DNA of 36,879 bases from an uncultured Flavobacteriales bacterium (GTDB lineage Bacteria; Bacteroidota; Bacteroidia; Flavobacteriales_G; Salibacteraceae): NCBI GenBank assembly GCA_937899835.1, contig CALCCE010000299.1, forward strand, positions 1-36,879, written 5' to 3'. Position 1 is the stretch's first letter. Every line of letters starts with the position of its first letter. The notes under the pieces are model-generated. The model did no database searches. It was not told the origin of the DNA and saw only the letters and a list, made by a program, of their open reading frames with translations. The position numbers and the translations under genes are program-made. Positions 15,237 through 36,879 of this stretch are shown one piece after another.

Positions 15237-15843
15237 TTGAGATAAAGATTTTTGGGTGTTTTTGGAATACCACCAAATGTCTTTGATCTGCCAATACGCG
15301 GTGTCAACGTTTGTATCTAAACCGGAAACGGATGTCACTTTTTAGTCCTAAAAACGGTCCTAACCACATCCAAAGGCTTTTTATCAGCACTTACATCATG
15401 GTAAAAGGAGAATACTGCCATGCTTTTGCACTATCTGAGCACTCCACGTCCATCTCCTTGACCACTGCCTATATAGGCATTTTGCAAACACCCAAAAGAG
15501 TCGCCAACATTGCCGATACATGAGCGCATTTTGTGGGACAATCAATTGGTTGTGAGTACATAAAAAATACAGGGTGTTTCCCAACCCCCAATTTTGATCA
15601 AGCACCCTTACTAGGGTCCATCAAATTTTTTGCTGTTGGATGAAATTCTATCACCCTGACTCCCCATTTGAATCCAGAAATTGACATAGTTTTACGCAGC
15701 AAAAGTTCATTTCGGTCCCCACCCGAAGCATTGCCCCACCATTTTGGTTGCGCCACTCAGTGGCGATACATTTTGCTACAACGTCATTTTTTTGCCCAAA
15801 ACCCTTGGTCACTCACCCAAACTATCCAACTCATTTTTGGTGT
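15237..15843. other. Divergent intergenic region upstream of the beta-helix T9SS gene and the TPR hybrid sensor
   Basis: About 600 bases between two divergent genes. No protein frame here has a convincing start or domain; the frames that overlap it are extensions of the flanking genes ahead of their signal-peptide starts. The one structure I see is the hairpin at 15593-15631. I could not find a clear Bacteroidota-type TTTG/TAnnTTTG promoter pair with correct spacing for either gene. Confidence 0.55.
15593..15631 (+). promoter_or_regulatory. Interrupted hairpin followed by a T-run in the divergent region
   Basis: TTTGAT (15593-15598) pairs with ATCAAA (15620-15625), and inside it ACCCT (15604-15608) pairs with AGGGT (15613-15617) around a TACT loop; six further T follow (15626-15631). 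It sits about 215 bases ahead of the hybrid sensor start. It could be a leader terminator/attenuator or an operator; as it lies between divergent genes, no upstream gene needs it as an ordinary terminator. Confidence 0.3.
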
Positions 15844-18800
15844 ATGCGAAGATTGCTACTCACTGCTTGCTCTCTGCTTTGCTTTGCCATATCGGCAATT
15901 GCCCAACTGTATAAGTACGAGCAAATCGCCCCCCTAAAGGCCAGCTTAAACGAAGCTTCTGCCCAAGCGCGGATCCACCTCTTTTTGAAACTTGCCGACG
16001 GCTATCTCAATTTTCAAATTGACTCTGCGCTGGTGTATGCACAACGTGCACAACAGGATGCCGAAGCCTTAGGATACGCTTGGGGAATACAGAAAGGCAA
16101 GTACCAGGAAGCAAAAGCCCTGGCCCACACTACCGCCAGCAGCACCATAGCCCAGCGGCAACTTTCGTGTGAAGCGTGGTTCAAAAAAAATGACTTCGAA
16201 CATGATGCCTGGTTGTGCCGAATTGAATACCTCAAAAGCATCACCAACTCCAGGCCACTCAAGGTAGTGGCTCAAGAAGCATCCAACATTCTCGATGCGG
16301 TGAACCCTTCCGAAAGCCCATACATCTGCGGAACGGCATGGTATTGTTTGTATGAGGCACAAAGGTCGCACGAGTACAACAAAACCAACTTTAGAGAAAG
16401 TTTGGATACGGCTTTGACCCTTTTTAAACAGGCCCATGATTCCACCGCCATCACCTGGGTCGAACTCAAAAAGATAGAACACAGTGACTTAAAACAAAAT
16501 CAACAACGTTTAAGAGAGGTTTTGCTTCAAGTTTCGAACTGGCAAAACAAGTTGTTGATGTCAGAAAACCTGAACCTGCTAATGCTCACCTACAGTTACC
16601 TCAACCAGCAAGATGCTACCCACCTTATCTGGCCAAAGAACCAACATATTCTTGATGAATACGGAAGCAAGAAAGCCGAGGCGATGTATCATTATTGGAT
16701 GGGAGAAAGCTTGAGTTATCTTAACGAAAAAAAACAAGCTATTCCACACACCAAAAAAGCCATTGCACTTTATGACAAATTAGAGGACAACGTGTTGCTC
16801 TATAAATCGTTAAAAAGTCTTGCAGATTTTAATGAATATTTTCGAAGCTTAGTAGAAGCACTGAACCTTTATTGGCATGCTTTAGAAATTGCCAACGAAT
16901 TGGAGAACCCAATATTTATCAACTTCACCAAAAAGTCCTTGGCATTGATCCACTTACGGACCAAAGAATATGAAAAAGCAGAAAAGCTCACTTTGGAGGT
17001 TCTGAATTATTTCCAAGAATCATTTACGGGCAAACTAAAAAGTAAATTTTGCGGTTTTCAGTATGAAATATTGGGTAGAATCTATCGTACACAACACCGC
17101 TACCACGAAGCGCATGCCGTGTATAACAAAGCACATTCCATCTACTCAAAAGTTAGCCTTCCTGGCAAAATACGGATCGATTGGCAAAAAATAGCCCTGT
17201 TTTTAGATCAATCACAAGTTGATAGTGCTACTGCCGTTTACGCTGAGGTTCAAAAAGAAACCCGCCCCTATCGTAAAAATGACTTTTTCGACATGGTGGA
17301 AGGGAAACTGTTCTTCGCTCAAAAAAAATACTCCGAAGCTGCCAATTCCATTCAAAAGTACCTTAACTCTGGTCAAAGCACGGAGTACAGCCGTAACAAT
17401 AGTGTGGCTCAGGAGTACCTTTATAAAATTGCCAAGGCCCAAGGCAGGTTTTCGGAAGCATTGGAGTACCTGGAAATCCATAAATCCATTGAAGACAGCC
17501 TACAAAGAGTCAATGAGGTGGAAAACATTCTTCTTATTGAATCCAGGTATGAAATTGAACAAAAAGAGGCCGATCTACTGCGGTTGGAACAAGAAAAGCA
17601 ACTCCAATCGTTGACCCTGCAAAGCAAGGAAGACGAACTGTCCATTGGGAGGCTCTATATTTTCATTTTACTGCTCTCATTGTTCCTTTTTGGTGGTGTG
17701 ATTTTTTGGCGGGCAAGGCAAGGAAAACTGAAAAAAGAAAAAGAGGCCATTCGCCATGCCAAAGAACGCGTAGAGTTGGCACAAGCCCGAGCCACCGCCA
17801 ATCAAAAAATAGAGCTTTCGCGTTTGAAAGACGAACTGTTTGCCAATGTGTCGCACGAACTGCGCACCCCACTCACGTTGATTCTGGTGCCCCTAAAAAA
17901 CTTGCTAAAATCTGCCAACAAGAAAGAATTACCGGTGTACGAGTCCATTCTGAAGAGTGGCGATCAGCTGTTGGACCTGGTAGACAAAATATTGGAATTG
18001 TCGCGCTTGGAATCCGGGGCGACTCAACTCCGGAAAAGTTCCATGGATGTAACCGCTTTTGGTCAACAGCTTGAAGCCAGCTTTTTGCCGTTGTTTGATA
18101 GTAAAAACATTGTTTTTCGCGTTGCCTTACCGGATGAAAAGTTGCGCCTGAAGGGAGATGCCAACCGGCTAAAAATGGTGCTCAACAATCTGCTGAACAA
18201 CGCCTTCCACCATTGCCCGGAAAATGGCGAGGTACACTTGCAGATGACATCAAAAACAACCGAAAACGGGCACAAACTGGAAATTCGGGTAAGGAACACG
18301 GGCAATGCGATCCCCGAAGCACTACAAGAACGCATTTTTGACCGCTTTTTTCGGCAAGAGGAACAAGCCTACACCGGTAGCGGCATCGGGCTGGCCCTGA
18401 GTCGCCAAATTGTAGCGATGCACAACGGTACCATTCGAGTAGCCAACGCTGCGATAGAGGGAGTAGAGTTTCAATTGCTGCTCCCAGATGTGGAGTTGGT
18501 AAGCCCCGCTCCAAAACCTGAAGCAACGCCAATCGCTCTTCCCTCAGACGAGGCAAAGAAACATTCCATAGAAGTAGTAGCAAAGCCATTACCCGAAAAG
18601 CCAACGGTTTTGGTAGTAGAAGACAACCTCGAAATGCAAGACCTGCTCAAAGACTTGCTGGCCAATGACTTTTATATTCGCCTGGCCGCCAATGGAATTC
18701 AAGGAGAAGAGATGGCCATAGAGCACCAACCGCAACTCATCCTTAGCGATGTAATGATGCCTGAACGGGACGGAATAGAACTGCTGCAAGTGATCAAGTC

Positions 18801-19356
18801 CAACATTCACACCAGCCACATTCCCGTGGTTTTGTTGACGGCCCGCGCAGACAACGAAAGTCGAATTATCGGTTTCAATGAAGATGCGGACGACTACATC
18901 AGTAAACCCTTTGATCCGGATGCCCTGCGATCGCGCATCCACAACTTATTGCGGCAACGGCAGCAATTGCAAAAGCGGTTTACCCAAAAGCCGACCTTAT
19001 TGCCCAAGACTGCACCTTGCACTACCCTGGACCAGGAATTCATGTCCCGGGCACAGAAAATTGTGGAGACCCACTACACCGATGGTCAATTTTCGGTAGA
19101 GCTATTTTGCCAGGAATTGGCTTTGAACCGAAACAGTGTACACAACAAATTGAAAGCCTTGACCGGCCAGAGTGCCTGGCAATACATTCAAACCTACCGC
19201 CTTTCAAAAGCTGCCGAGCTTCTCCACAACACCACGGACAGTATCAACCTTATTGCTACCGAAACTGGCTTCAACAACCGACAAGCCTTCAACAAGCGAT
19301 TTCGTTCCCACTTTGAAATGACTCCCGGAGAATACCGAAAAAAACCTCCCGCTTAA
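15844..19356 (+). CDS. Hybrid two-component system protein: TPR sensor, HisKA, HATPase, receiver, AraC HTH
   Basis: Start chosen at ATG 15844, which gives a signal peptide (MRRLLLTACSLLCFAISAIA); the frame upstream of it is untranslated-looking. The 1,170-residue protein has a periplasmic sensor half with TPR-like helical repeats (about 40-560), one membrane segment (about 603-622), a short coiled coil, a HisKA dimerisation domain with the phosphoacceptor at about H671 (VSHELRTPL), an HATPase_c domain (NNLLNNAFHH N-box; GSGIGLAL G-box), a receiver domain with phosphoacceptor at about D969 (LSDVMMPERDG) and K in ISKPFD, and a C-terminal AraC-type double HTH (about 1075-1168, ending in TPGEYRKK). 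This is the one-polypeptide HTCS plan of Bacteroidota, but with a TPR rather than the usual Reg_prop/Y_Y_Y sensor. The signal and target genes are not evident from the neighbours. Confidence 0.92.
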   Translation: MRRLLLTACSLLCFAISAIAQLYKYEQIAPLKASLNEASAQARIHLFLKLADGYLNFQIDSALVYAQRAQQDAEALGYAWGIQKGKYQEAKALAHTTASSTIAQRQLSCEAWFKKNDFEHDAWLCRIEYLKSITNSRPLKVVAQEASNILDAVNPSESPYICGTAWYCLYEAQRSHEYNKTNFRESLDTALTLFKQAHDSTAITWVELKKIEHSDLKQNQQRLREVLLQVSNWQNKLLMSENLNLLMLTYSYLNQQDATHLIWPKNQHILDEYGSKKAEAMYHYWMGESLSYLNEKKQAIPHTKKAIALYDKLEDNVLLYKSLKSLADFNEYFRSLVEALNLYWHALEIANELENPIFINFTKKSLALIHLRTKEYEKAEKLTLEVLNYFQESFTGKLKSKFCGFQYEILGRIYRTQHRYHEAHAVYNKAHSIYSKVSLPGKIRIDWQKIALFLDQSQVDSATAVYAEVQKETRPYRKNDFFDMVEGKLFFAQKKYSEAANSIQKYLNSGQSTEYSRNNSVAQEYLYKIAKAQGRFSEALEYLEIHKSIEDSLQRVNEVENILLIESRYEIEQKEADLLRLEQEKQLQSLTLQSKEDELSIGRLYIFILLLSLFLFGGVIFWRARQGKLKKEKEAIRHAKERVELAQARATANQKIELSRLKDELFANVSHELRTPLTLILVPLKNLLKSANKKELPVYESILKSGDQLLDLVDKILELSRLESGATQLRKSSMDVTAFGQQLEASFLPLFDSKNIVFRVALPDEKLRLKGDANRLKMVLNNLLNNAFHHCPENGEVHLQMTSKTTENGHKLEIRVRNTGNAIPEALQERIFDRFFRQEEQAYTGSGIGLALSRQIVAMHNGTIRVANAAIEGVEFQLLLPDVELVSPAPKPEATPIALPSDEAKKHSIEVVAKPLPEKPTVLVVEDNLEMQDLLKDLLANDFYIRLAANGIQGEEMAIEHQPQLILSDVMMPERDGIELLQVIKSNIHTSHIPVVLLTARADNESRIIGFNEDADDYISKPFDPDALRSRIHNLLRQRQQLQKRFTQKPTLLPKTAPCTTLDQEFMSRAQKIVETHYTDGQFSVELFCQELALNRNSVHNKLKALTGQSAWQYIQTYRLSKAAELLHNTTDSINLIATETGFNNRQAFNKRFRSHFEMTPGEYRKKPPA

Positions 19357-19476: not shown

Positions 19477-20163
19477 ATGCTCAACCGGCAAGCCTTCCAG
19501 ATACCTTTTGAATTTGACGCACAGGCGCTCAGAGAAGAGTTGTCCTCCATACCTCGGGAACAGGTTAAAGAAACTTACAATCCCTATGTTGATGCGGGTG
19601 ATTTAGAATACCTTGACCTCATTGAGCCCATTTTGCAGCAAGACGGTAGCATTAAGTTTATCCCCAACCAAAACCTGAAAGGTCGTCCTCACCTTCTGGA
19701 GGTGCTGAAACACTTTCCTTCCGAGAAAAAGACCTACCGGATGCACACTTTAAATCCCGGAGGAGAAATAAGGGAACACCGAGACAACCAAAGAAGGTAT
19801 GAAGATGGCGATATACGGGTGCACATTGCTTTGCAATCGGCAGCCGGCATGGAAACCTACCTCAATGGCGAGAAAATAGAAATCAAAGAAGGCAGTTGCT
19901 GGTACCTCGACCTGACCTTGCCCCACAGAATGGTCAACCACAGTGCAGTACCGAGAATCCACCTGATCATCGATTGCTATCGCAACGCGTGGTGGGATGC
20001 TCTATTTTCAGAACATGCGCCAGAAGAACAAGCTCCATTTGCCAACATGAGTTTGGAAGAACTGGAAAGCCTTCAATTCCAGTTGTCAGGATTTGAAGGT
20101 TCGGCGGAGTTGACAATGCTTCAGGAGGTGGCATTAGAAATTGCCGCCCGAAAAGCGGGATAA
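19477..20163 (+). CDS. Aspartyl/asparaginyl beta-hydroxylase-family 2-oxoglutarate/Fe(II) dioxygenase
   Basis: A 228-residue soluble protein that matches the Asp_Arg_Hydrox family. The jelly-roll core shows H101-R-D103 (GGEIREHRDN), the distal H150 (DLTLPHRMVNHS) and R160 (VPRIHLIIDC), fitting an HxD...H iron triad with the arginine that binds 2-oxoglutarate ten residues later. The HxD carboxylate is present, as in the bacterial free-amino-acid (cis-proline-type) hydroxylases of this family and unlike animal AspH, which lacks it; so a small amino-acid or peptide substrate is a reasonable inference. It stands alone on the plus strand, 120 bases after the hybrid sensor and convergent with the synthase-acyltransferase fusion. 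The C-terminal 50 residues (from about 178) are an extra helical tail of unknown role. ATG start at 19477. Confidence 0.83.
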   Translation: MLNRQAFQIPFEFDAQALREELSSIPREQVKETYNPYVDAGDLEYLDLIEPILQQDGSIKFIPNQNLKGRPHLLEVLKHFPSEKKTYRMHTLNPGGEIREHRDNQRRYEDGDIRVHIALQSAAGMETYLNGEKIEIKEGSCWYLDLTLPHRMVNHSAVPRIHLIIDCYRNAWWDALFSEHAPEEQAPFANMSLEELESLQFQLSGFEGSAELTMLQEVALEIAARKAG

Positions 20164-20327: not shown

Positions 20328-22784
20328 TCAGCCTACTGCCACTGCTTTTTGATTGATCATGCTCAAAGAGGCGGCACTCAGATGTTCACGCGCCTGAATA
20401 TACCCGTACTCACAACAAATGGTGGCCCCAACCTTTTTCTTTTCCATTTCAGCTGTGTAAGCCAGGTCTAACTTTTGGCATCCCAATGCTTTGGCCCGCA
20501 AAACCGATTGATACAACATCTGCTTGTAGCTGTTGTCGCTGTAGACCTTATCGTAATCCAGCCCCACGAGCAAGGCGTTGTAAACTGCCCCGTTTCTGTA
20601 ACTAAAGAGTACAGCTACGGGCGCTTCAGGATCGGTTTTGAGGGAGAGGGAAACAATATCGTACGACGGATCGCTGTACATGGCCTCGAAGAGGCGGTAG
20701 GGCATTTCAAAATCATTGATCACAAATGCCCGGGAATGCACATTTTTATAGAGTTCATAAAACCGCTTTTGTGTGGCCTTGTCCTTAGGTTTATCATAGT
20801 TCACAATGAAACGGTCCGCATAAGCGGCAATCTCTTTTCTAAAATTGTTCCGGTATTTGTTGCCGATGGTTCGCTCAAATTCCTGTTGGCTATTCCAGTT
20901 CAAATTTTGAACTACCGCATAATTGGGCAATTGATATTCCAAAAATCCAAGATCAAGCATTCGATTTTTAAGGTCAATTGGAGCGCTGCTTTCAATGTCT
21001 TTTAATACGATCTTATCGGCATTTTCTCGCTCTGCTACCTGTTGCATTTGTTGGGTCAGCACCTCCAAGGCTTTTTTCCAGTGGGGGTTGGCCGTATTGA
21101 GGTGAACGGTTTTTCCTACCGAAAAAGGCGTTCCGGTCATTACTGTATAGGAAGTTTGAAAATAAGCATCCGCCTTCCTCCTGACCTCTACCTGCCTGGA
21201 GGTTTCAGGATCGCTCAGCATGTCGTTCTTGGTCAGAAAACAAATGAATACCCCCAATAAAATCAGTTCTCCACGCTCATCCGTAATGCGGGAATAATAA
21301 AATTTTGCGTTTTTTTCCTTTTCCTTGTTATTCGAAAAAGAGCGTTCAAGTGACAGCAAATTAGCATAGGTGTGCGAACCTGTATGCTCAAAATGGTGTT
21401 GCCACTCTTCATGATCCAGCGAAGCAACACTGGTAGTTAAATCGGATTTTACTTGCGCTTGAGCTCCTAAAGCTATCTTTTCCACCGGTTGGCTGAATTG
21501 GAAAGCAGGAATTCGAAAAGATTTGGCTACCTCAACAGGCGAACTGCCTTCACTCAAAATTCCGCTGGTGTATGCCTCCTGCAGTGCAACCAACATGGCA
21601 TCAATTTCCTGGTAACTCAGGTTGTTGTTGATCATAAACCGGATGCCACTTCTTTTGATGGGCACCGCAGGATAACCGGCTGCATTGAGGTAAAACCCTT
21701 TTTCTTTCATTTGTTTCACAATCACAATGGTGATGCGGTGCAGGCCCACCGGGATGAAAAACAACGGACTTTCTGAAGCCTTGTATTGCGGCAGGCCCAG
21801 GGCTTCCAAGCGCTCATTTGTATAGGCAATTTTTTGCCGCAGTTGCTCTTGATGGTCCTTTATTTCCTCGGATTGCAACAGGCGCGAAGCAGCTATGGCC
21901 GCTCCTAACATCGGCGGTTGTATGGGGCCGGAAAAGATCAAAGTACTGCCACAGTTTTTTATTTTTTGCTTCATTTCCTCGTTTGGCAGGAGTACTACAC
22001 CACCGGCGGAAGCAAAGGCTTTGTTTAGAGAAGTGATCATCACCATTTTAGGATGGTGGCTCATCTGGCTTCGTACGTAGCCAATGCCATTGGTGCCGGT
22101 CCAGCCCATGCCATGGGCATCATCAACATAAAGGTGCAGGCATTTGTAGCGTTCCATCAGTTGCTCCAGCTCTTGAAGGGGGGCCATATCGCCATACATG
22201 GAATACACTCCATCGGCCATGTACCATACTCTGTTGTGTTTGTTTTGCAGTTGTTTCAATTTGTTTTCCAAGGCTTCCATAGAGTTGTGCGGAATAATGG
22301 AAATCGGAATGTTATTGGCCTTTAACACCTGAGCGGACAATTGAACACTGGCGTGCACCTGCAAATCTAAAATGACCGCATCGCCCGGTTCTACGATCAC
22401 CGGAAGCGTAGCCATGTGCCCCAAAGTAGTACTTGCTGTTACGATGGCCGGTTGTTCAAAAATACGCTCCAAGTTAGCTTCCAACTCTTGGTAAAGCCCA
22501 AGAGACAAATAAGCCCGCGAACTGGAAAATTGGGTTCCATATTGCTCAAGTGCCTGCATGGCACCCGCTTTCAGGGCCGGGTGATACTCTAAGCCCAAGT
22601 AGCTACAGGAGCCAAAGTTGATGAGCTCTTTTTCGTTCACGGTGATCTGTGAACCGGAAAGTGTTTCGTCTGATGTGAAATTATGAACCAGGCCATTTCG
22701 GTCGGCATCATTCACGATTTGGTTTAAAGTTCGGAGAAATTGTGACACTTTTTTGGCAATTTTTGGGCATTCCCTACTGTACAA
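20328..22784 (-). CDS. Fusion of alpha-oxoamine synthase (PLP enzyme) and GNAT/FemAB-like acyltransferase
   Basis: Residues about 10-400 form a class II PLP alpha-oxoamine synthase, the family of 2-amino-3-ketobutyrate CoA ligase, AONS and serine palmitoyltransferase: NFGSCSYLGLE entry motif, SSSRAYLS, VHASV (PLP-stacking His), DDAHGMGWTG with H224, and the Schiff-base lysine K255 in TSLNKAFASAGG, 31 residues after H224 as expected. Residues about 450-800 are a second domain resembling GNAT/FemAB-type N-acyltransferases (KYRNNFRKEI, YNALLVGLDYDK, GCQKLDLAY). The enzyme would condense an amino acid with an acyl-CoA/ACP and perhaps N-acylate the product; substrates are unknown. Cytosolic; no signal peptide. 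The start is uncertain: 22784 is a TTG, the next in-frame upstream stop is at about 22803-22805, and GTG at 22748 (V13) is an alternative. On the same strand lie an orphan kinase and an SDR. Confidence 0.85.
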   Translation of the reverse strand: MYSRECPKIAKKVSQFLRTLNQIVNDADRNGLVHNFTSDETLSGSQITVNEKELINFGSCSYLGLEYHPALKAGAMQALEQYGTQFSSSRAYLSLGLYQELEANLERIFEQPAIVTASTTLGHMATLPVIVEPGDAVILDLQVHASVQLSAQVLKANNIPISIIPHNSMEALENKLKQLQNKHNRVWYMADGVYSMYGDMAPLQELEQLMERYKCLHLYVDDAHGMGWTGTNGIGYVRSQMSHHPKMVMITSLNKAFASAGGVVLLPNEEMKQKIKNCGSTLIFSGPIQPPMLGAAIAASRLLQSEEIKDHQEQLRQKIAYTNERLEALGLPQYKASESPLFFIPVGLHRITIVIVKQMKEKGFYLNAAGYPAVPIKRSGIRFMINNNLSYQEIDAMLVALQEAYTSGILSEGSSPVEVAKSFRIPAFQFSQPVEKIALGAQAQVKSDLTTSVASLDHEEWQHHFEHTGSHTYANLLSLERSFSNNKEKEKNAKFYYSRITDERGELILLGVFICFLTKNDMLSDPETSRQVEVRRKADAYFQTSYTVMTGTPFSVGKTVHLNTANPHWKKALEVLTQQMQQVAERENADKIVLKDIESSAPIDLKNRMLDLGFLEYQLPNYAVVQNLNWNSQQEFERTIGNKYRNNFRKEIAAYADRFIVNYDKPKDKATQKRFYELYKNVHSRAFVINDFEMPYRLFEAMYSDPSYDIVSLSLKTDPEAPVAVLFSYRNGAVYNALLVGLDYDKVYSDNSYKQMLYQSVLRAKALGCQKLDLAYTAEMEKKKVGATICCEYGYIQAREHLSAASLSMINQKAVAVG

Positions 22785-23232
22785 GGAGTAAGGTTGTCCT
22801 GGTTATGAATTCAATTTTTTAGCTCGTTAGAGCCAACTACTGGGGGTAGAACGGAAAGGTTGGTAGGAAATCCTACAGAAGTGGAGAGTAGCGTTTTGGC
22901 AACAGCGGCTGCAAAATAGCTTCATGGCAGACGGCAGCCTACAGGAAGATACAGACGGCTCGGTTGGCCAATGCCTTAAGGCGATGAACTTAAGAGGCTG
23001 CAGGCTTTAAGCAGGGCCATACCTCATAAGAAGAATAACTCAACGGTGTTTTGTTGGAAGAGAAATACAAATGGTGGTGAAGTCCAAGGGTTGCAGGTCG
23101 ATCAGCCATGAATTGGTATTAGCAGTGTTAAAATAAAAACAATGCCAGGGCAGGCAGATTAATCATTCAGAAGCCATCGCAGTTAGATTCCTTCGCTCTT
23201 TTTCGATTTTTTTCACTTTGGCCTAAATGGCC
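22785..23232. other. Non-coding gap with several inverted repeats, leader of the synthase-acyltransferase gene
   Basis: About 450 bases with no frame that looks coding on either strand. It contains a perfect GTAGGA-AA-TCCTAC palindrome (22863-22876), a GCAGCCT/AGGCTGC pair (22934-22940 with 22995-23001), and a nested CTTAAG...CTTAAG pair (22975-22980 with 22989-22994). These lie in the 5' leader of the minus-strand fusion gene. A structured leader RNA or a decayed mobile fragment are both possible; neither is recognised. Confidence 0.4.
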
Positions 23233-24138
23233 TCACACTTCAATGGGCAACAACACTTTAAAATGACTTCCTTCATTCACTTTGCTTTCCACCGCAATGT
23301 TGCCACAGTGTGCCTTTACAATTTGACAAACAATAGAAAGCCCTAAACCGGTGCTACTTTCTTTTCCTGTGGGCTTCACCGATACTTTGTTGTAAGGATT
23401 AAAAATGAAAGGTAAATCAGACTCCGGTATACCCAACCCCTGATCGATAACCGACACGCACACATTTTCTTTTTCATGAACCTCCTTTTGGGAAATCACT
23501 TTGACAGAAGTGTGCTCGTGGGAAAACTTTATCGCATTGGATATAAGGTTGTGAAAGACTTGTTCCATCTTCAACGGGTCAAAAGAAAAAGCCTCTATTG
23601 AAGAATCAAATCTCGCCTGCAAGTCAATGTTTTTTCGCCGGGCAGAAATGGCCTCCCGATCGATCACTTTTTGGAGAATGTCGTTTAAATTGGCCGTTTG
23701 AGGAACGATATTAAACGTTCCAGAACGAATTAAAGTGAGGTCCAATAAGTTTCGGGCCAACTCTAAGGTATACTCGGCAGTAACGCCAATCTTTTCTACA
23801 ATTTCTTTTTCTAAAGGGGATCCCTGCTTTTCGAGTTCATTCTCCAACAAGTTGGCGAGGCCCTTTATGTTGGATAACGGGGACCGCAAATCATGCGAAA
23901 CGATGGCCAGAAACTGATCTTTAAGGCGATCCATTTTCTCCAGCCTTTGGTTTTGGTCCTGAAGTTTTTTCTCGGCATTGGCAAGAGCTGCATTGGCCTC
24001 ACTAAGTTCCCGAATGGTTACCTGGAGCCCACGCGAACTGTACCGTTGTCTTGCATCCTGAATGGCCTGATATTCTTTCAGTCTGGTTTCCGCCAGAATT
24101 AACCGATCCTCAAGTTGTTTTCGGGTAAGTTGATCCAT
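23233..24138 (-). CDS. Soluble orphan histidine kinase (HisKA-HATPase_c)
   Basis: The preferred start is ATG 24136-24138 (301 residues); the frame continues to a TTG at 24186 that would overlap the SDR gene by 16 bases. No signal peptide or membrane segment is present. An N-terminal coiled coil (about 1-75, rich in Q/E/R/L) leads into HisKA with phosphoacceptor H82 (AIVSHDLRSPLSN), then HATPase_c with N-box (FHNLISNAIKFS), DQGLGIP and STGLGLSI boxes, ending in the usual FKVLLP strand. All catalytic motifs are intact. There is no receiver domain and no adjacent response regulator, so its partner must be elsewhere or it belongs to a phosphorelay. Same strand as, and 32 bases after, the SDR gene, so probably one operon. 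Confidence 0.88.
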   Translation of the reverse strand: MDQLTRKQLEDRLILAETRLKEYQAIQDARQRYSSRGLQVTIRELSEANAALANAEKKLQDQNQRLEKMDRLKDQFLAIVSHDLRSPLSNIKGLANLLENELEKQGSPLEKEIVEKIGVTAEYTLELARNLLDLTLIRSGTFNIVPQTANLNDILQKVIDREAISARRKNIDLQARFDSSIEAFSFDPLKMEQVFHNLISNAIKFSHEHTSVKVISQKEVHEKENVCVSVIDQGLGIPESDLPFIFNPYNKVSVKPTGKESSTGLGLSIVCQIVKAHCGNIAVESKVNEGSHFKVLLPIEV

Positions 24139-24170
24139 AAATGAAGGAGCCGTTCTAAGTTGCTGTTTGA

Positions 24171-24935
24171 TTAGCGTAGGGTCCAACCACCATCATTTAA
24201 AATCGTTTGCCCTGTAACGAATGAAGATTGATCGGAAGCGAGCCATAGGGCCATTTTGGCTTGTTCTTCCGGTTCAGCAAATCTCCCCATGGGAGTATCT
24301 GCCAATAGTGCCATACTAATGTTGGGGTCATCGTACAAGGGAGCTGTCATTGGGGTTTTAGTCCACCCGGGGGCAATTCCATTTACCCGAATTCCTACAG
24401 GAGCAAGGTCTAACCCCAGGGCTCGGGTAAATCCGGCAAGGCCTGTTTTTGAGGCTACGTAAGCAGCACTACCTTCCATGGCCACAACACCACCAATGGA
24501 AGAAATATTTACGATGGTTCCTCTGTTCTGACGTTTCATTTGTGGCACTACTGCCCGACACATGAGGAACGGGGCTTTCAGATTATTTCCAATTAGTTCA
24601 TCGAATTCCTCATCGGTCGTTTCTTCTATTGAATGCCCCAGGTAAACTCCTGCTGCATTGATCAATATATCAATGGTACCAAGCTGATCAATGGTTTGGG
24701 AAACGATCTCTTTTACTGCGGCTTGATGGCTAACATTTGCGGGAAAGACGAGTAAAGACTGGCTTTCATCTTTAGCCTCTACAAGCAATTTCTCGGCAGT
24801 ACTAAGCTTGTCGGCATTGGTATCAACCACCACGACATGGGCTTTTTCTTCCAAAAAAAGCTTCGCAATTGAAAGGCCCATGCCACTGGCTCCACCAGTG
24901 ACAATCACCACTTTATTTTCAAAACAACTATACAT
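24171..24935 (-). CDS. SDR-family NAD(P)-dependent oxidoreductase
   Basis: A 254-residue classical short-chain dehydrogenase/reductase, starting at ATG 24933-24935 (a TTG at 24956 would add seven residues). It has the cofactor glycine motif TGGASGMG (13-20), an acidic D38 at the end of the second strand (VVVDTN) that favours NAD(H), NAAG (93-96), and the catalytic S146, Y159 and K163 (YVASK). The C-terminal FVTGQTILNDGG is typical of the family. The substrate cannot be read from sequence. It is the first gene of a minus-strand pair with the orphan kinase and lies 1.4 kb upstream of the oxoamine synthase fusion, so a ketone reduction in the same pathway is possible but unproven. Confidence 0.9.
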   Translation of the reverse strand: MYSCFENKVVIVTGGASGMGLSIAKLFLEEKAHVVVVDTNADKLSTAEKLLVEAKDESQSLLVFPANVSHQAAVKEIVSQTIDQLGTIDILINAAGVYLGHSIEETTDEEFDELIGNNLKAPFLMCRAVVPQMKRQNRGTIVNISSIGGVVAMEGSAAYVASKTGLAGFTRALGLDLAPVGIRVNGIAPGWTKTPMTAPLYDDPNISMALLADTPMGRFAEPEEQAKMALWLASDQSSFVTGQTILNDGGWTLR

Positions 24936-25280: not shown

Positions 25281-25577
25281 TTAGCCGGTGATGGCAATCA
25301 CCGCAGCTACCACGTAGCCAGTCATGTCGTGGCCACTGTTGTCGTCCAATTTATAGGTCACATTCCACTTTACTTGCGGTCCTGACCAGGAGATGTCGGA
25401 AATCTCCAATTGAATGTCGCGCATCATGTGATCCTTGTTGCTGCCATAAGTACCGTTGATGGCTTGAAGCACTACCGTAGCGCCCGTGATGTTGGTACCA
25501 TCGGGAAAGTTAGCAATCGCGGGTTGGGTTCCTGATCCGCTAAAAGAGGTGGTTACAGATTGAAAAATAGTTCCCAT
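25281..25577 (-). CDS. Small beta-rich protein of unknown function (98 aa)
   Basis: ATG at 25575-25577. No signal peptide, membrane segment or cysteine. The composition (alternating hydrophobic strands such as GATVVLQAI, IQLEISDISW, VKWNVTYKL, GYVVAAVIAI; many G, S, T, N, D) suggests a small all-beta sandwich. The W-centred hairpin and the late AVIAI strand faintly recall small lectin-type sandwiches, but I do not recognise a family. It has its own strong terminator, and so is probably a single-gene transcript and possibly well expressed. It is divergent, with 193 bases between, from the operon of another small unknown protein and a sensor kinase. Confidence 0.7.
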   Translation of the reverse strand: MGTIFQSVTTSFSGSGTQPAIANFPDGTNITGATVVLQAINGTYGSNKDHMMRDIQLEISDISWSGPQVKWNVTYKLDDNSGHDMTGYVVAAVIAITG

Positions 25578-25770: not shown

Positions 25771-26145
25771 ATGGAAAATTCACATGTCCCTCATAGTAGT
25801 TTCGAAACCTACCCCTCTGCCTACCTGGCCTTAGAAGGTACCCTTCTTAATTTGTTTGTTACCGTCACCATGCCGCCCTATACCCGCATGCGGAAAGACG
25901 ACGAAGATTTGGAAGGAGAAAATGGCGCAGTAGCCTATACCATTGTCCCCGATGATTCGGGCTTTCCCACCAGGTGGATTTTTCAGGAATCGTTTGAATT
26001 TGAACTGTTTGGCGATCCGGCCAACCGAACCATTGGGGTGACGGTTATAGAAGAAGGCAACCCGGTAAACGGTGGAACGGTGATCGTTCACCACGCCGAT
26101 GCCGATGAAAAAGGAGGCGTGGTCAACCCGCCCAAAGCCACATGA
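25771..26145 (+). CDS. Small protein of unknown function coupled to a sensor kinase (124 aa)
   Basis: Start placed at ATG 25771; the frame is open further up to about 25642 but that part is Phe/Pro-rich and looks non-coding. The protein lacks a signal peptide and cysteines, is acidic (KDDEDLEGENG), and shows short beta-strand patterns (LLNLFVTVTMP, SFEFELFG, IGVTVIEE, GTVIVHHADAD). I recognise no family. Its stop overlaps the start of the TPR kinase in an ATGA (26142-26145), so the two are translationally coupled and very likely one operon. This links it to the signalling system, perhaps as an accessory or ligand-binding component, by context only. Confidence 0.65.
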   Translation: MENSHVPHSSFETYPSAYLALEGTLLNLFVTVTMPPYTRMRKDDEDLEGENGAVAYTIVPDDSGFPTRWIFQESFEFELFGDPANRTIGVTVIEEGNPVNGGTVIVHHADADEKGGVVNPPKAT

Positions 26146-28109
26146 GCAGGATACTGCTGCTCCTTGGAATAGTATACTTCTTTGGGACAGCATTAAAGGC
26201 CCAGCCGGTTGACAGTTTAAAACAACTCTACGAGGAATCGGAAAACGATTCCATCCGCTTGCATGCCCTCAATGAATTGGCTTGGGAATACCGCTACCTC
26301 CACCCGGAGGCGGCTATTCGGTATGCTGAGGAGGCCGCTGTATTGGCCCGACAGCGAAAGGATACCGGAGCCCTGGCCTCTGCCCTGCTGCGCAAGGCCT
26401 TTACCTTGCGCAAACAAGGTCACCTGAATCAGGCGGAGCCCTTGAACGCAGAAGCGGTACAATTAAAAGCAGCCATTCGAGATACTTTGGGCCTGGCCAT
26501 GGCGTTGGGCAACCTGAGCCAATTAAACCGCTTGCAAGGCCACTATAAAAAGGCCATCAAACACCGTTTGGAATCGATCGAGTTGTTGGTACACCCTCGG
26601 TTTCAGCCACAGCGCATGGCAGGCTACAACAACCTCGGCGGCATCCACGTAAGTCTGAAACACTACGAGCAAGCCATTGAAGAGTACCGGAACTGTTTGA
26701 CATTGGCCCTTCAATTGAGCGATTCGGCCATGCAAGCACGGGTATGGTACAACCTTGGTGCTTCTTATTTTGCCTTGAAACAGTATGCGATCGCCAGACA
26801 GTTTTACCAACAAGCGTTGACCTTGGCCACCAGCCACCTTGACCAGCCTACACAAGCCTTGCTCTACAACAGTTTGGGCAACATGCATCACCTCCAGAGG
26901 GAGGAACAGGCGGCCTTAGAGCAGTATAAGAAGGCCGAGTTGATCTACGATTCCCTGGGTTTTTCGGTAGAAAAGATCATGATCTACAACAACCTTGCTG
27001 CCGTGTACCAAAGCCAGGGTGAGGCTGAAAAAACCCTGCTTTACTACCACCGGGCGGCCAACCTTGCACAAGCTTTAAAAAGCCCTCAAGACTTGCCACA
27101 GATTTACCTGAACCTTTCTCAGGGTTTTGAAGCCTACCGACAACCGGATAGCGCTCTGTACTATTTCAAGCTTGCCAATCAAATTAAAGACAGCTTGTTC
27201 ACGGCCGAAAAGAACCGACAGATCGTGGAGATGCAAGAGAAGTATGAAAGTGCAAAGAAAGATCAGTCCATTGCCGAATTGAACGAAGACAAAGCAAGAA
27301 AAGAAGCCGATATACAAGTGCGCAACTTGCTTTTGGGAGCTTCGGGTATTTTGTTTCTCATGGCTTTGGGGTTTGGCATCAACTACTTCCAGAAATTGCG
27401 TACCCAGAAAAAACTGGCAGCCCGGGAATCGGAACTGAACCGCAACCAGTTGGTACAAGTGATGCAAGACAGTGAATTGAAATCGGTGAATGCCTACCTG
27501 GACGGCGAAAATGCGGAGCGCGAACGCCTGGCCGGCGAGTTGCACGACCACCTGGGTGCTCATCTGGCCACGGTGAAACTCCACTACGACCACATTGCTT
27601 CCACGATTCAGGAGGAACAGCAATTGCAACAGCTTCAAAAAGCCAACGATTTGTTGGGTCTGGCTTTGGTAGAATTGCGCCAGATCGCCCACAACCTGGC
27701 CTCGGGAGTACTCAATAAGTTTGGCCTCGTATCGGCTACCGAAGACCTTTGCAACGCTATTTCTGAGTCAGGAACGATCACTGTGCAAGTAGATGCCTTT
27801 GAACTCGACAACCGGTTGCCACCAGCATTAGAATTGACCCTCTTTCGGGCAGTTCAGGAGTTGTTGAGCAATGTGATCAAACACGCCGGGGCCTCTGAAG
27901 TCAACGTGCAACTCATTCGTCACGACGACCACGTGAGTATTATGGTAGAAGATAATGGGATTGGTTTTTCGACTACTGCTCAGCCTTCGGGCATTGGCTT
28001 GCACACCATGGCCAACCGTGCCACCAACTTGGGTGGAACACTCAACATCGATTCTAAACCGGGCCATGGCACCACCGTGATACTTGAAGTACCTTTTTCT
28101 CAATCCTAA
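26142..28109 (+). CDS. TPR-domain sensor histidine kinase, HisKA_3 (NarX/LiaS-like)
   Basis: A 655-residue membrane sensor. A signal peptide (MSRILLLLGIVYFFGTALKA) is followed by six or more TPR units (about 25-340; repeats with GNLSQL-, YNNLGG-, YNLGASYF-, YNSLGNMHH-type cores), a linker helix, one membrane segment (about 396-415), a coiled coil, the HisKA_3 dimerisation helix with phosphoacceptor H468 (GELHDHLG), and an HATPase_c domain (QELLSNVIKHA, DNGIGF, SGIGLHTM). The architecture is a periplasmic TPR sensor feeding a NarL-type regulator. The gene overlaps the small upstream gene by 4 bases and is followed after 5 bases by its response regulator, so the three form one operon. The signal is unknown. 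Confidence 0.92.
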   Translation: MSRILLLLGIVYFFGTALKAQPVDSLKQLYEESENDSIRLHALNELAWEYRYLHPEAAIRYAEEAAVLARQRKDTGALASALLRKAFTLRKQGHLNQAEPLNAEAVQLKAAIRDTLGLAMALGNLSQLNRLQGHYKKAIKHRLESIELLVHPRFQPQRMAGYNNLGGIHVSLKHYEQAIEEYRNCLTLALQLSDSAMQARVWYNLGASYFALKQYAIARQFYQQALTLATSHLDQPTQALLYNSLGNMHHLQREEQAALEQYKKAELIYDSLGFSVEKIMIYNNLAAVYQSQGEAEKTLLYYHRAANLAQALKSPQDLPQIYLNLSQGFEAYRQPDSALYYFKLANQIKDSLFTAEKNRQIVEMQEKYESAKKDQSIAELNEDKARKEADIQVRNLLLGASGILFLMALGFGINYFQKLRTQKKLAARESELNRNQLVQVMQDSELKSVNAYLDGENAERERLAGELHDHLGAHLATVKLHYDHIASTIQEEQQLQQLQKANDLLGLALVELRQIAHNLASGVLNKFGLVSATEDLCNAISESGTITVQVDAFELDNRLPPALELTLFRAVQELLSNVIKHAGASEVNVQLIRHDDHVSIMVEDNGIGFSTTAQPSGIGLHTMANRATNLGGTLNIDSKPGHGTTVILEVPFSQS

Positions 28110-28114
28110 TCCTT

Positions 28115-28759
28115 ATGTCTTCCTACTCCGTACTCATTGCCGACGACCACCAACTGTTTATTGACGGTGTAAAAATGTTGTTGAACGCCACGGATCAATT
28201 CGAAGTAGTTGCTGAGGCTTCTAACGGCAAGCGGGTGCTGGCGGAATTGGAACGTATAACCGTGGAGTTGGCCATTCTCGACATCAACATGCCGGAACTG
28301 GACGGCGTTGAAACCGCCAAAATGATCAAAAAACAATACCCTACTATTCGTATTTTGATCCTTACCATGTACAGCCATCCGTCTTTCGTCAAACGGTTGA
28401 TTCGAGCCGGAGTGGACGGCTACATCCTGAAAGAAAACAGCCAAAAAGAATTGATGACGGCCTTGCAAACCGTGGCAGTGGGCAAGAAGTATTTTGCTTC
28501 AGAAGTAACCGAGGCGGTGATGAACAGCTTCAACCCCGAAGCAGAACTGAAAGGTGCCGATCAGGTTAAGCTCACCAGGCGCGAACGCGAGGTATTGCAA
28601 CTGGTATTGAAGGAAAAAACCACGCAAGAAATTGCGGATCAACTGTTTGTTTCCCAAAACACGGTAATCACCCACCGCAAAAACATCATGCGCAAACTCG
28701 ATGTGCGCAACGTAGCTGGAATGGTTCGGGTGGCTACTGAATTGGGTTTGGTAGATTGA
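28115..28759 (+). CDS. NarL/LuxR-family response regulator
   Basis: A 214-residue regulator. Residues 1-120 are a receiver domain with the acidic pair in ADDHQ, phosphoacceptor D56 (AILDINMPELDG), T in LTMYS and K in ILKENS. Residues about 150-214 are a GerE/LuxR helix-turn-helix (LTRREREVLQLV, QEIADQLFVSQNTVITHRKNI). It starts 5 bases after the TPR kinase stop and is the obvious partner of that HisKA_3 kinase. An inverted-repeat site lies directly after its stop (28761-28805) and could be a target of this or another regulator. Confidence 0.95.
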   Translation: MSSYSVLIADDHQLFIDGVKMLLNATDQFEVVAEASNGKRVLAELERITVELAILDINMPELDGVETAKMIKKQYPTIRILILTMYSHPSFVKRLIRAGVDGYILKENSQKELMTALQTVAVGKKYFASEVTEAVMNSFNPEAELKGADQVKLTRREREVLQLVLKEKTTQEIADQLFVSQNTVITHRKNIMRKLDVRNVAGMVRVATELGLVD

Positions 28760-33490: not shown

Positions 33491-34204
33491 TTAAAACCGC
33501 CCCGGGAAAATCAATTTTAACGCTCCTTGGTACTTGCGCGAAATCGGGATTTCTGCTTCGTTTTCCATAATCAGGTGGCCTCCCTCTGCTTTGCGGTACT
33601 CTCGAATTCGGGCCGTATTTACGAGGTAAGAATTGTGGACGCGCACAAAATCGGGCGCAGGCAATTCGTTTTGAAATTCTTTCAGCAATCGGGTTACGGT
33701 TAAGCGTTCCGCTTGTTCAAGGTAGAGCGTAGAGTAATTGCCTTCTGCTTTGATGTAGAGCACCTCATTTGGATCGAGCCTTCGCAGCCCTTTTCCAGTA
33801 GAAATGACCAATTTTTGAGGAGCCTCTTCCGCAGCCTCCACTTTTTCCAATCGGTGGCGCAACTTATTGATTACTCGTTGCAACTGATCAGGATCTAAAG
33901 GTTTGAGCAAATAGTCGGTGGCATCGAGTGAAATGGCTTTTAAGGCATAGTGTTGGTGAGCAGTAACGAGAACCACCTGCAAGTTGTGCGGAGCCAAAAT
34001 TTCCAACACCTGCAAACCGTCCAGCCCCGGCATTTCAATATCGAGAAAAACCACTTGCAAATCTAGGCTGGGAATGGCGGCCAGGGCTTTTACCGGATCG
34101 GTGAAAGTCGCTACCACCGAAAAGTCGGGATGATCGGCCAGCAACAGGCTTTGCAATACACGGGTAGCATCGGGTTCATTGTCGATAAGGGCGGTACGGA
34201 TCAT
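33491..34204 (-). CDS. LytTR-family response regulator
   Basis: Start at ATG 34202-34204, overlapping the kinase stop in ATGA (34201-34204); the longer frame (to 34300) lies inside the kinase gene. The 237-residue protein has a receiver domain (IDNEP acidic pair, phosphoacceptor D55 in VVFLDIEMPGLDG, T in LVTAHQ, K in LLKPLD) and a LytTR DNA-binding domain (about 135-237; IKAEGNYSTLYL, RVHNSYLVNTARI, ISRKYQGAL). This is the classic partner of a His_kinase-family sensor like the one immediately upstream, with which it is translationally coupled. Confidence 0.95.
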   Translation of the reverse strand: MIRTALIDNEPDATRVLQSLLLADHPDFSVVATFTDPVKALAAIPSLDLQVVFLDIEMPGLDGLQVLEILAPHNLQVVLVTAHQHYALKAISLDATDYLLKPLDPDQLQRVINKLRHRLEKVEAAEEAPQKLVISTGKGLRRLDPNEVLYIKAEGNYSTLYLEQAERLTVTRLLKEFQNELPAPDFVRVHNSYLVNTARIREYRKAEGGHLIMENEAEIPISRKYQGALKLIFPGRF

Positions 34205-36879
34205 GATGGCGGTATTTTTTGAAGCAGTGGCAGGATCAATTGAATGGAAGTTCCGGTAGGATCGGTGGTAATGTTGAATTCCGTTTTGGTCTTGAGCCAT
34301 TCTTCCAGAAGCTGCAAACGTTTGCGTACGATGCCCAATCCGGAAGGCCGATCGGTATCGGGTTGCCTTTCCTTCGGCATGCCGGGACCGTTATCGGTCA
34401 CGGTGAGCAGCAACCGTTGCTCCTGCACTTGCACACTTACGGAAACTTCGCAGCTTCTCCCCTGTTCAGGGTCGATCTGGCCATATTTGATGGCGTTTTC
34501 TACCAGTGGCTGCAGCAGTAAGGGAGGCAGATACGCCAGTGGAACATCTGCATCGCTTTCCCAATTGAAGTGGTACCGCAGGTGCTCGCCATGGCGAAGG
34601 CTTTCCAATTGCAGGTAGGCTTTGAGCACTTGCAATTCTTGCGCCAGGGGCACCAATTTGTGTTCACTCATTTCAAAAACCGACCGCAACAATTGTGCGA
34701 ATCGGGCCACAAAACCAATCAGCGCCCGGGCATCGTTTTCGAGAGCTTTCGCCAACACCGAGTTCAGACTGTTGTAAATCAAGTGGGGATTGAGTTGGGA
34801 ACTAAGGGCCTGGTTTTGGTTCGCTATAATTTCCAATTGCAGGGCTTGCCGTTTGCGTACTACGCCAAGTTGCCAACGAAAAACCAACAAAATCAGCAAC
34901 ACCCCTCCAACGCTGCCCAACAAAACAAACCACCACCGCGCCCAAAGGGGCGGCAAGATTTCGAAGGTGAGCTGAAGCGGCCTTTCGGACCACCATCCGC
35001 TACCGTCACCTGCCTGAATTTGTAGCTGGTAATGGCCAGGAGCCAGGGCATTGAATACCAGGTCACGGGATTGGGTGTGGCTCCAATCCGCTTCCGAAGA
35101 AAGGCGATAACGGTACACCAAACTTTTTCGGTACCGAAAACTCACCGGCTCAAAAAAGACCTCCAGGTTGTTTTGCCCGGCCGAAAGGGTAAAAGAATCG
35201 GGCAAAAGGGTATCACCACCATTGATTTGTAGGCGGGTTAAATACAACGGAATGGCATGCGGATGCAGCTCAGTCCTTTGGTTTTCAAAAAAGGCGATGC
35301 CCTGATCCGTGGCCGCAGCTACCCATTGGTCGGAAGCGTGCACATCCAGTACCATGTTGGAGGGCAAGCCATCGGCCTGCGTCAGCAATACTGCCTCGGT
35401 CGTTTCGCCGATTTGCCATCCGGTGAGGCGGCACAAGCCTGCATTGGTAGCCACCCACAGTTGGTGTTGCCCATCGAGGTGCAGGGCTTGACAATTGTTG
35501 TTGATCAGGCCCTCGCTTTCCGTAATGGTCTTCAAGGTAGTTCCACGGAGCACCGCTACCCCACCGCCAAGCGTTCCAACAATGATGGTATGATCAGGTA
35601 GGTGCAGCAAATCGGTTACCCGGTGGCGAAACACCGGATGCGCTGGCACCATAGGCTGCAACTGCTTTTCCTTCCACCTAAAAAGACCGAACCTGCCGCC
35701 CATCAGGGTATCCTGCGGTAGGAAAGCAAACTTTCGAAGCGCCCGCACTTCGATGGTCTCCCACTTTTGAAAGCTTGGCTCCAATACATCTTGAAAAGTA
35801 ACCTTGTCAACGTAAGATGTGGTGAATATGGGATGGCGTGCAAAAGCAGCGTTGGCGAAGGTCGGCTGGATGTGTTCAACCTTGCCACTTTTTGGACAAT
35901 ACCGCGATCCTAAATACACGCCAAAATAAACCTCCTGCTGTTGTTCAAGGGCTTCAGCATTATATATGCTAATGGCAGATGTATAATGAAGTACGGTAGT
36001 ATCTTCACCGGGCCTGTAGCTCCACAAATGTCCATCTACTCCTCCAAAAAAGAAATGCTCACCGAGACTCGTCACCGCATTGACTCGGTCGTTTTGTAAG
36101 CCGTGTCCGGCGTGAAACGTACGCATATTTGAGTTAGCGGCATAAAACACCCCATTGGATTGACTCGTGAACCAATAGCCGCCCTCGCGGTCGCACAAAA
36201 TGGCGGTAATGTTGTAGCCCTCTAACCAATGATCAATCGGCTGGCTAAAATCATTTCCCGCGAAGCGGTAGAGGCCATTGGTAGTGCCAACCCACCAGTC
36301 TTTGCCATCGTGATGAAAAGCTTTGTTCACCTTTCCGCTCACCTGAAACAACTGCCACTGCTCCGCACCATCCCAATGAAAAATGGTTCCCCCAAAGTGG
36401 CCCACCACCTCCTCCCCTTGCCGAACGGCAAAGCAATCGGTTACCCGGTATTCCAGAAATGGAGATGGGTCGCCGGTGGGTTCTGGCTTCCAGGGATGCC
36501 ATTGAAAGTTTTCCTTCGGATCAAATGGGAGACTGTGCCGAAAAAGCCCCTGAAAGGCACACAAATTCGCTGGTCCACCGCCCAAGTGCAGTTGTTCCGA
36601 CCGCTTTTCCCAGGGCCCATGACTTTGGATGGACGAGCAATCCATAGGGCTCCACAGCAATTGGCCGTGGGCCAGCACCACGCCAACAATGGTATCCTCA
36701 AAGCCAATGTCCACTACTATGCTCGGCTGCTTCATCAACGTGTCGGACAAGCAATGCAAATGAAAACGGTTGTTTTCCCAATACCACAAGCGATTGGCGT
36801 AGGAAACACACCACAAGCGCCCGCGTTCATCTACTTCAAGGTCGAAAATGGTAAGGTCTTCCAGGCCATCGGCCGCCGT
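34201..36879 (-). CDS. Propeller/Y_Y_Y sensor histidine kinase (His_kinase family), 5'-partial
   Basis: The frame is open to the right window edge: the codons at 36817-36879 read GLEDLTIFDLEVDERGRLW, itself a two-component-propeller repeat, so the N-terminus is outside the window. The visible ~890 residues have Reg_prop-type beta-propeller repeats (AFHHDGKDWWVGTTNGLYRF, ILCDREGGYWFTSQSNGVF, ALHLDGQHQLWVATNAGL, VHASDQWVAAATDQGI), a Y_Y_Y domain (FRYRKSLVYRYRL... ALAPGHYQLQIQA), a membrane segment (WWFVLLGSVGGVLLILLVF), a His_kinase domain with the phosphoacceptor His in QLNPHLIYNSLN (codon 34783-34785), and HATPase_c (LVENAIKYG, DNGPGMP, SGLGIVRKR). It pairs with the coupled LytTR regulator. 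The usual PHFLFN is PHLIYN here; the histidine is kept. Confidence 0.92.
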   Translation of the reverse strand, partial: TAADGLEDLTIFDLEVDERGRLWCVSYANRLWYWENNRFHLHCLSDTLMKQPSIVVDIGFEDTIVGVVLAHGQLLWSPMDCSSIQSHGPWEKRSEQLHLGGGPANLCAFQGLFRHSLPFDPKENFQWHPWKPEPTGDPSPFLEYRVTDCFAVRQGEEVVGHFGGTIFHWDGAEQWQLFQVSGKVNKAFHHDGKDWWVGTTNGLYRFAGNDFSQPIDHWLEGYNITAILCDREGGYWFTSQSNGVFYAANSNMRTFHAGHGLQNDRVNAVTSLGEHFFFGGVDGHLWSYRPGEDTTVLHYTSAISIYNAEALEQQQEVYFGVYLGSRYCPKSGKVEHIQPTFANAAFARHPIFTTSYVDKVTFQDVLEPSFQKWETIEVRALRKFAFLPQDTLMGGRFGLFRWKEKQLQPMVPAHPVFRHRVTDLLHLPDHTIIVGTLGGGVAVLRGTTLKTITESEGLINNNCQALHLDGQHQLWVATNAGLCRLTGWQIGETTEAVLLTQADGLPSNMVLDVHASDQWVAAATDQGIAFFENQRTELHPHAIPLYLTRLQINGGDTLLPDSFTLSAGQNNLEVFFEPVSFRYRKSLVYRYRLSSEADWSHTQSRDLVFNALAPGHYQLQIQAGDGSGWWSERPLQLTFEILPPLWARWWFVLLGSVGGVLLILLVFRWQLGVVRKRQALQLEIIANQNQALSSQLNPHLIYNSLNSVLAKALENDARALIGFVARFAQLLRSVFEMSEHKLVPLAQELQVLKAYLQLESLRHGEHLRYHFNWESDADVPLAYLPPLLLQPLVENAIKYGQIDPEQGRSCEVSVSVQVQEQRLLLTVTDNGPGMPKERQPDTDRPSGLGIVRKRLQLLEEWLKTKTEFNITTDPTGTSIQLILPLLQKIPPS

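Follow-up and report, generated by a model that had tools for sequence, protein, structure and literature searches.

The window analysed here, a stretch of 36,879 nucleotides (contig CALCCE010000299.1 of assembly GCA_937899835.1) from an uncultured Flavobacteriales bacterium, encodes an 818-residue protein in which an alpha-oxoamine synthase (AOS) is fused to a tandem-GNAT transferase. We favour, with moderate confidence, the view that this fusion is a bifunctional enzyme making an N-acylated alpha-aminoketone lipid, and that the soluble histidine kinase and the short-chain dehydrogenase/reductase (SDR) encoded beside it are incidental neighbours. The initial annotation had joined these three genes into a candidate small lipid or amino-ketone pathway with its own sensor. 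Its description of the individual genes proved accurate, while the pathway that it built from them did not survive comparison with related genomes (see below).

The reading of the protein as a synthase joined to an acyltransferase is correct: both Aminotran_1_2 (E 1.4e-29) and Acetyltransf_6 (E 5.1e-9) are found in the 818-codon frame above their Pfam cut-offs, and the predicted model of the whole fusion has a mean pLDDT of 87.7. In a fold search against solved structures, the AOS half matched ThaOS (Z 45.9), the serine palmitoyltransferase (SPT) of S. multivorum (Z 44.5) and CqsA (2wk9, Z 38.6), and it also aligns by fold with BioF, KBL and ALAS. Residues His144, Asp221, His224, Lys255 and Arg382 of the window enzyme correspond to His138, Asp210, His213, Lys244 and Arg367 of SPT, which are catalytic, Lys255 being the lysine that binds pyridoxal phosphate (PLP). 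In the residue alignment these five positions are invariant in every row that has the column, whether from the two clades of fusions described below (A and B) or from stand-alone AOS proteins. The PF00155 fold, together with the PLP lysine, stacking histidine, aspartate and arginine, places the protein in the AOS superfamily; His123 and Cys60, where SPT has Asn117 and Asn52, are specific to this family. The curated models for particular members all fall short of their cut-offs. The best of them, NF005697 (PRK07505, "hypothetical protein"), gives 277 bits against 342, the two SPT equivalogs give 176.7 against 640 (NF047600) and 162.2 against 500 (NF047599), and the CqsA-type model NF005526 gives 115.9 against 428, a score on which membership of the CqsA/LqsA group was rejected.

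When the whole fusion model was used in the fold search, the matches were filled by the AOS domain, and so the C-terminal half (residues 440-818) was folded alone with AlphaFold2 (AF2), giving a mean pLDDT of 94.7. This predicted model has the tandem-GNAT fold of the FemXAB transferases, with matches to Sba18 (Z 22.9), FemX (22.8), FemA (21.4), the N-myristoyltransferases (about 17) and MprF (16.7), and Foldseek gives the same fold. Among 47 relatives, Pfam detects Acetyltransf_6 in 39 and FemAB_like in 19. A profile of the C-terminal half found no relative among the sequences of solved structures, the only two matches having E values of 0.08-0.09. Compared with the single sequence of YghO, which itself has no Pfam match, the half gave an hhalign probability of 0.2 and a BLASTP E value of 0.66, and sequence homology with bCerS/YghO was rejected on these results.

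In the proposed mechanism, the N-terminal PLP domain would join an amino acid to an acyl thioester with loss of CO2, generating an alpha-aminoketone, and the free amine would then receive an acyl group or, less probably, an aminoacyl group from the C-terminal FemXAB-fold domain. A single polypeptide would then produce an N-acylated 3-keto lipid, by steps in the order proposed for bacterial ceramide: synthase, N-acylation and then reduction. PMC11087976 supports a bacterial ceramide route in which N-acylation precedes reduction, PMC11324152 has both orders as proposals, and PMC9386255 gives yghO as the counterpart, by homology, of the N-acyltransferase gene of Caulobacter. The acylation-first order would be built into a synthase-acyltransferase fusion, by analogy rather than by membership in that pathway; the parallel stays an analogy because YghO has neither a Pfam match nor detectable similarity to the C-terminal half of the fusion.

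The distribution of the fusion is patchy. In the window's family it was found at E 1e-100 in one genome of 35, its own, and of 395 genomes drawn evenly from the class, 66 have a match at 1e-80, the matches being either full-length fusions or stand-alone AOS proteins of about 420-470 residues. The comparison loci (numbered L below) include 80 from a scan of named genomes with an alignment as query, the best 80 of 581 relatives being taken; the top loci among these encode proteins 44-54% identical to the window protein. A scan of named-genome contigs with the window protein alone as query gave no match, and plasmids gave no relative at E 1e-60. In a FastTree tree of the AOS part, which drew long-branch warnings, the window protein and 109 other fusions group apart from the stand-alone AOS proteins with support 95, and the fusion group also takes in two AOS fragments that lie at the ends of contigs (L111 and L112). 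Because all fusions group apart in this way, the AOS-GNAT fusion is an old, stable architecture.

The window protein belongs to clade A of this tree, which has 24 rows (the window and 23 others) and may be larger than counted, since the named-genome loci are the best 80 of 581 relatives. Its members are from Echinicola, Fulvivirga, Kordia, Aureispira, Aureivirga, Saprospiraceae and Crocinitomicaceae, and also include a cyanobacterium, Plesiocystis and one member each of Oceanospirillaceae, Pseudomonadales and Moraxellaceae, among others. The IQ-TREE repeat used 62 rows, namely all 24 of clade A, every third clade-B fusion above 700 residues (28) and every third stand-alone AOS (10), and clade A again formed one side of a branch, with support 99. 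Of the fusions from the 395-genome draw that were placed in the tree, none other than the window's fell in clade A. The scatter of the clade over phyla suggests horizontal transfer; several members come from metagenome bins, which may be mislabelled. The source genome has two fusions, the window copy and one on contig C94 that is 32% identical to it, and its further AOS proteins are a glycine C-acetyltransferase and one that scores 296.6 where the SPT model requires 640. As separate observations, a Pseudomonadales bin carries two fusions of 830 and 846 residues in the same orientation, 1.6 kb apart (L139:4560-11166), and in L114 (genome G224) a clade-B fusion is split into frames of 637 and 187 residues and is probably broken or misassembled.

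Neighbouring genes were scanned at 13 clade-A loci, using 20 proteins chosen for closeness and strand rather than at random, and four of the 13 have fatty-acid genes near the fusion. A desaturase gene lies 6 nt downstream of the fusion in L119; genes for an AMP-ligase and an acyl carrier protein (ACP) lie upstream in L131; an AMP-ligase with an ACP-like domain is encoded 9 nt downstream in L140; and a fatty-acid hydroxylase gene lies 19 nt downstream in L134, where a B12-radical SAM protein is also encoded. In E. coli BL21, the genes for an AMP-ligase, an epimerase, an ACP and spt lie together, with yghO nearby.

Several observations weigh against a lipid N-acyltransferase with incidental neighbours. 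No fatty-acid gene was found among the scanned neighbours of the other nine of the 13 clade-A loci, which have an SDR (L124), a receiver (L126) or else secreted, outer-membrane, nuclease, peptidase, regulatory and unknown proteins. The receiver of L126 lies 13 nt downstream of the fusion, with a kinase upstream, and the SDR and kinase of the window could form an operon that this lineage alone has acquired. Because the C-terminal half has no detectable sequence kinship to YghO, the argument for N-acylation is one from the predicted fold, and the enzymes that match this fold best depend on aminoacyl-tRNA. The C-terminal domain might then be a tRNA-dependent aminoacyl transferase and the product an N-aminoacyl aminoketone, as the ranking of Sba18/Sbb17 and FemX/FemA (Z 20-23) above the N-myristoyltransferases would suggest. 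However, identity to these top matches is 8-14%, the Fem fold does not show tRNA use, and the presence of fatty-acid activation genes next to some fusions of clade A is consistent with acyl donors, though these genes could serve the AOS step alone. We regard aminoacyl transfer as unlikely, and acyl transfer remains the preferred reading.

The pathway proposed by the initial annotation, in which the SDR would reduce a 3-keto product of the synthase and the kinase would sense it, was rejected as a three-gene unit that does not recur in relatives, and we consider it improbable. The local facts on which it was built are real: the three open reading frames are genuine genes rather than chance frames, all are on the minus strand, and the SDR stop is separated from the kinase ATG by 32 nt, close enough for one transcript. 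With its ATG start at 24935, the SDR has exactly the residues S146, Y159 and K163 that had been assigned to it, and this Ser-Tyr-Lys triad together with TGxxxGxG makes it a classical SDR. An Asp at the end of beta-2 marks NAD preference, and the Asp there (VVVVD) fits the NAD type that had been predicted. The kinase, as had been noted, is soluble and has no adjoining regulator; it has no span predicted by a simple hydropathy sum, the method used for all span counts here, and no receiver. Its HisKA and HATPase_c domains score above the Pfam cut-offs, Pfam finds no sensor domain, PAS or receiver in it, and ATG 24138 is the likelier start.

Conservation of the gene order, on which the pathway was to stand or fall, was not found as far as the genomes compared here go: the trio is present at none of the 23 other clade-A loci looked at, although three of these (L135-L137) are high in GC and their gene calls are poor. 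Of the 21 other clade-A loci with adequate flanks, one has a kinase within 2.5 kb of the fusion. One other clade-A fusion has an SDR nearby, encoded 596 nt upstream on the same strand in Aureispira (L124), which would favour the pathway, but that SDR is 27% identical to the window's. The window SDR scores best against generic SDR, FabG and glucose-dehydrogenase models, only the "glucose 1-dehydrogenase" subfamily NF005559 reaching its cut-off among the 25 models listed, and its best relatives in the family (37-39% identical) are in genomes with no fusion at E 1e-100. Within the 395 genomes of the class, relatives of the kinase reach 35-38% identity at best, and six genomes, its own included, have a match at 1e-38. 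The source genome has 133 HATPase matches, four of them in the window, so that a nearby kinase is unremarkable: 0.15 HATPase domains are expected within 2.5 kb from the genome density and 0.84 from the density of the kinase-rich window, and any given gene has a chance of about 14%, genome-wide, of lying that close to one. Taken together, these comparisons make the kinase and SDR most likely incidental neighbours of the fusion. According to PMC11334938, Bacteroidota do not keep the three ceramide genes in a cluster, and so the absence of clustering itself says little on the pathway membership of the window SDR.

Equally doubtful is the idea that the fusion makes a diffusible signal like CAI-1 or LAI-1, with the adjoining kinase as its receptor. 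It draws on the stand-alone AOS relatives, which often lie beside kinases with multiple transmembrane (TM) spans: a profile-detected HATPase kinase is found within 2.5 kb in 20 of 27 loci, and in 19 of these it has at least two predicted spans. This arrangement is like that of the Legionella and Vibrio systems, the layout resembling LqsA-LqsR-LqsS. The window enzyme, however, is far below the NF005526 cut-off, its kinase is soluble and has no sensor domain where a membrane-embedded sensor kinase would be expected next to the synthase, and clade A has no conserved kinase. Stand-alone AOS genes beside multi-TM kinases were seen in L071, L074, L089, L094, L096, L099-L106, L109 and L110, and at 12 of the 30 loci of the neighbourhood comparison the synthase gene has a two-component gene of receiver size no more than about 220 nt away, a feature noted for the stand-alone AOS. 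These loci are possibly undescribed autoinducer systems of Bacteroidota.

The claim that the synthase has its own sensor fails for the window kinase, yet it holds for clade B and for the second fusion of the source genome. Counting loci with 1.5-kb flanks on both sides, which drops two of 23 loci in clade A, 21 of 88 in clade B and three of 30 stand-alone ones, a gene for the SpoIIAA-like protein DUF7793 lies within 1.5 kb of the synthase in 65 of 67 clade-B loci, none of 21 clade-A loci and none of 27 stand-alone AOS loci, and the window has none; the profile was built from neighbours of these same loci, and the clade-B count therefore leans to yes. Over all rows the counts are 79/88, 0/23 and 0/30. 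With Pfam's own DUF7793 model, seven of the eight genomes of the class draw that have a fusion and a single match have that match adjoining the fusion (the exception being G078). Fisher's test of the association gives p 2.5e-18, with related loci treated as independent. PAS sensors are encoded within 2.5 kb of the synthase at 65/67, 0/21 and 10/27 of the clade-B, clade-A and stand-alone loci, respectively, and 56 of the 67 clade-B loci have a HATPase kinase within that distance, with fewer than two predicted spans in 55. Sensor type thus goes with synthase type: soluble PAS proteins and DUF7793 with clade B, membrane kinases with stand-alone AOS, and neither with clade A.

The usual clade-B order is the fusion followed, divergently, by DUF7793, a PAS kinase and a response regulator. 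The second fusion of the source genome (L065; genome G000, contig C94, 8539-13782) has this full set divergent from it, and thus DUF7793 within 1.5 kb and a PAS sensor within 2.5 kb, the pair that the window lacks. In one clade-B family the PAS kinase beside DUF7793 is replaced by a one-component protein, which in L061 (4255-5163) ends in an AraC-type helix-turn-helix (HTH) by Pfam; those of L062, L064 and L114 are alike by clustering. Pfam HAMP does not exceed its cut-off in any clade-B PAS sensor, the nearest case being L061 alone (E 0.043). Tandem DUF7793 arrays were observed in L115, with four in a row after the fusion, and on contig C20 of G131, and several genomes have 8 to 11 DUF7793 matches. 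Decay of a clade-B module at the window locus, with loss of DUF7793 and the PAS sensor and with the soluble kinase left as a relic, was rejected as highly implausible, for although the intact module sits in the same genome and both kinases are soluble, the tree puts the window fusion firmly in clade A, none of the 21 clade-A loci has DUF7793, and the window kinase has no PAS domain.

The conserved sensor module of clade B is a more interesting lead than the window locus. We put it forward as a candidate for a new lipid-sensing circuit, perhaps a lipid-signalling system not yet described. As a tentative scheme, which we hold with rather low confidence, the N-acylated aminoketone of the fusion would stay in the cytosol or inner leaflet, DUF7793 would bind or relay it, and a soluble PAS protein would read it; a switch from exported to retained signal would go with the acyltransferase fusion, and the window copy would represent a branch that has no sensor and makes a related lipid. 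Under the same tentative scheme, the PAS protein would act either as a kinase with a response regulator or directly as an AraC-type regulator. Among the papers listed by searches of the open-licence literature, none describes this AOS-GNAT fusion or the clade-B module, and none was listed for DUF7793. If the clade-B link reflects lipid sensing, it would give DUF7793 a first role that can be tested and Bacteroidota a candidate signalling system different from the known ones.

Table 1. Features of the window and of the second fusion locus of the source genome
Feature	Location	Coordinates	Strand	Basis or remark
AOS-tandem GNAT fusion, 818 aa	Window	20328..22784	-	TTG start at 22784; alternative start GTG at about residue 13
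N-terminal AOS domain, about residues 1-425	Window	21510..22784	-	Pfam PF00155, fold matches, residue alignment
C-terminal tandem-GNAT domain, FemXAB fold, residues 440-818	Window	20331..21467	-	AF2 model, fold matches, Pfam PF13480
Non-coding leader, 448 nt, kinase-to-synthase gap	Window	22785..23232	-	Rfam and promoter/terminator-like site scans
Soluble histidine kinase with HisKA-HATPase, a short N-terminus and no sensor domain	Window	23233..24138	-	Pfam; judged incidental neighbour
Classical SDR, Ser146/Tyr159/Lys163	Window	24171..24935	-	Pfam, triad; judged incidental neighbour
DUF7793	L065	11585-11989		Divergent from fusion
PAS kinase (PAS-HisKA-HATPase)	L065	12088-13347		Divergent from fusion
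Receiver	L065	13360-13782		Divergent from fusion

The synthase leader, estimated at about 450 bases in the initial annotation, measures 448 nt (Table 1). It has no Rfam match, and none of the promoter- or terminator-like sites listed for the window falls inside it. Such sites are fewer than chance would predict, and the promoter-type motif TANNTTTG occurs 16 times in the window against 25.8 expected. An RNA element or promoter in the leader was rejected on the Rfam result and these below-chance counts. On the other side of the fusion, a gene of the aspartyl/asparaginyl beta-hydroxylase family (19477-20163, plus strand; PF05118, weak LpxO match) converges on it, and this gene has no relative among the open reading frames of the compared fusion loci. 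Upstream of the SDR is a 98-residue open frame with no Pfam match (25281-25577, minus strand). The window is rich in signalling genes (segments 15748-19356, 26142-28759 and 34201-36816), which encode a hybrid kinase that carries an AraC HTH, a kinase of TPR type together with a NarL-like regulator, and one more HATPase protein.

If a 3-keto-ceramide-like lipid does come from one polypeptide, the fusion would be a compact sphingolipid-like route outside the Spt-bCerS-CerR genes, and surveys based on those genes would miss it. Like SPT (PDB 3a2b/8guh), the window enzyme has the AOS fold, in which its PLP lysine and remaining catalytic residues occupy equivalent positions; unlike SPT, it is fused to a second enzyme, reaches 176.7 of the 640 bits of the SPT model, and has Cys60 and His123 in place of Asn52 and Asn117. 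With the Spt-bCerS-CerR system of Caulobacter and E. coli it would share a synthase and an N-acyltransferase acting before reduction (PMC11087976), and the AMP-ligase and ACP genes near E. coli spt are matched near some clade-A fusions. The window protein differs in being one polypeptide whose transferase has no detectable YghO/bCerS homology, and no CerR-like epimerase gene adjoins it. The cysteate acyl-ACP transferase SulA/CapA (PDB 7u7h, 28eh), a lipid enzyme known from Bacteroidota, has the AOS fold as well, but stands alone and is 18-20% identical to the window AOS in fold alignments. CqsA and LqsA also share this fold, and the window enzyme's relatives too lie near sensor kinases; unlike those systems, the window enzyme reaches 115.9 of 428 with NF005526, and the fusions are accompanied by soluble PAS sensors with DUF7793 or, in clade A, by no sensor. 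Finally, the FemXAB enzymes and Sba18/Sbb17 have the tandem-GNAT fold of the C-terminal half at Z 20-23, whereas the window domain is 8-14% identical to them and is fused to an AOS.

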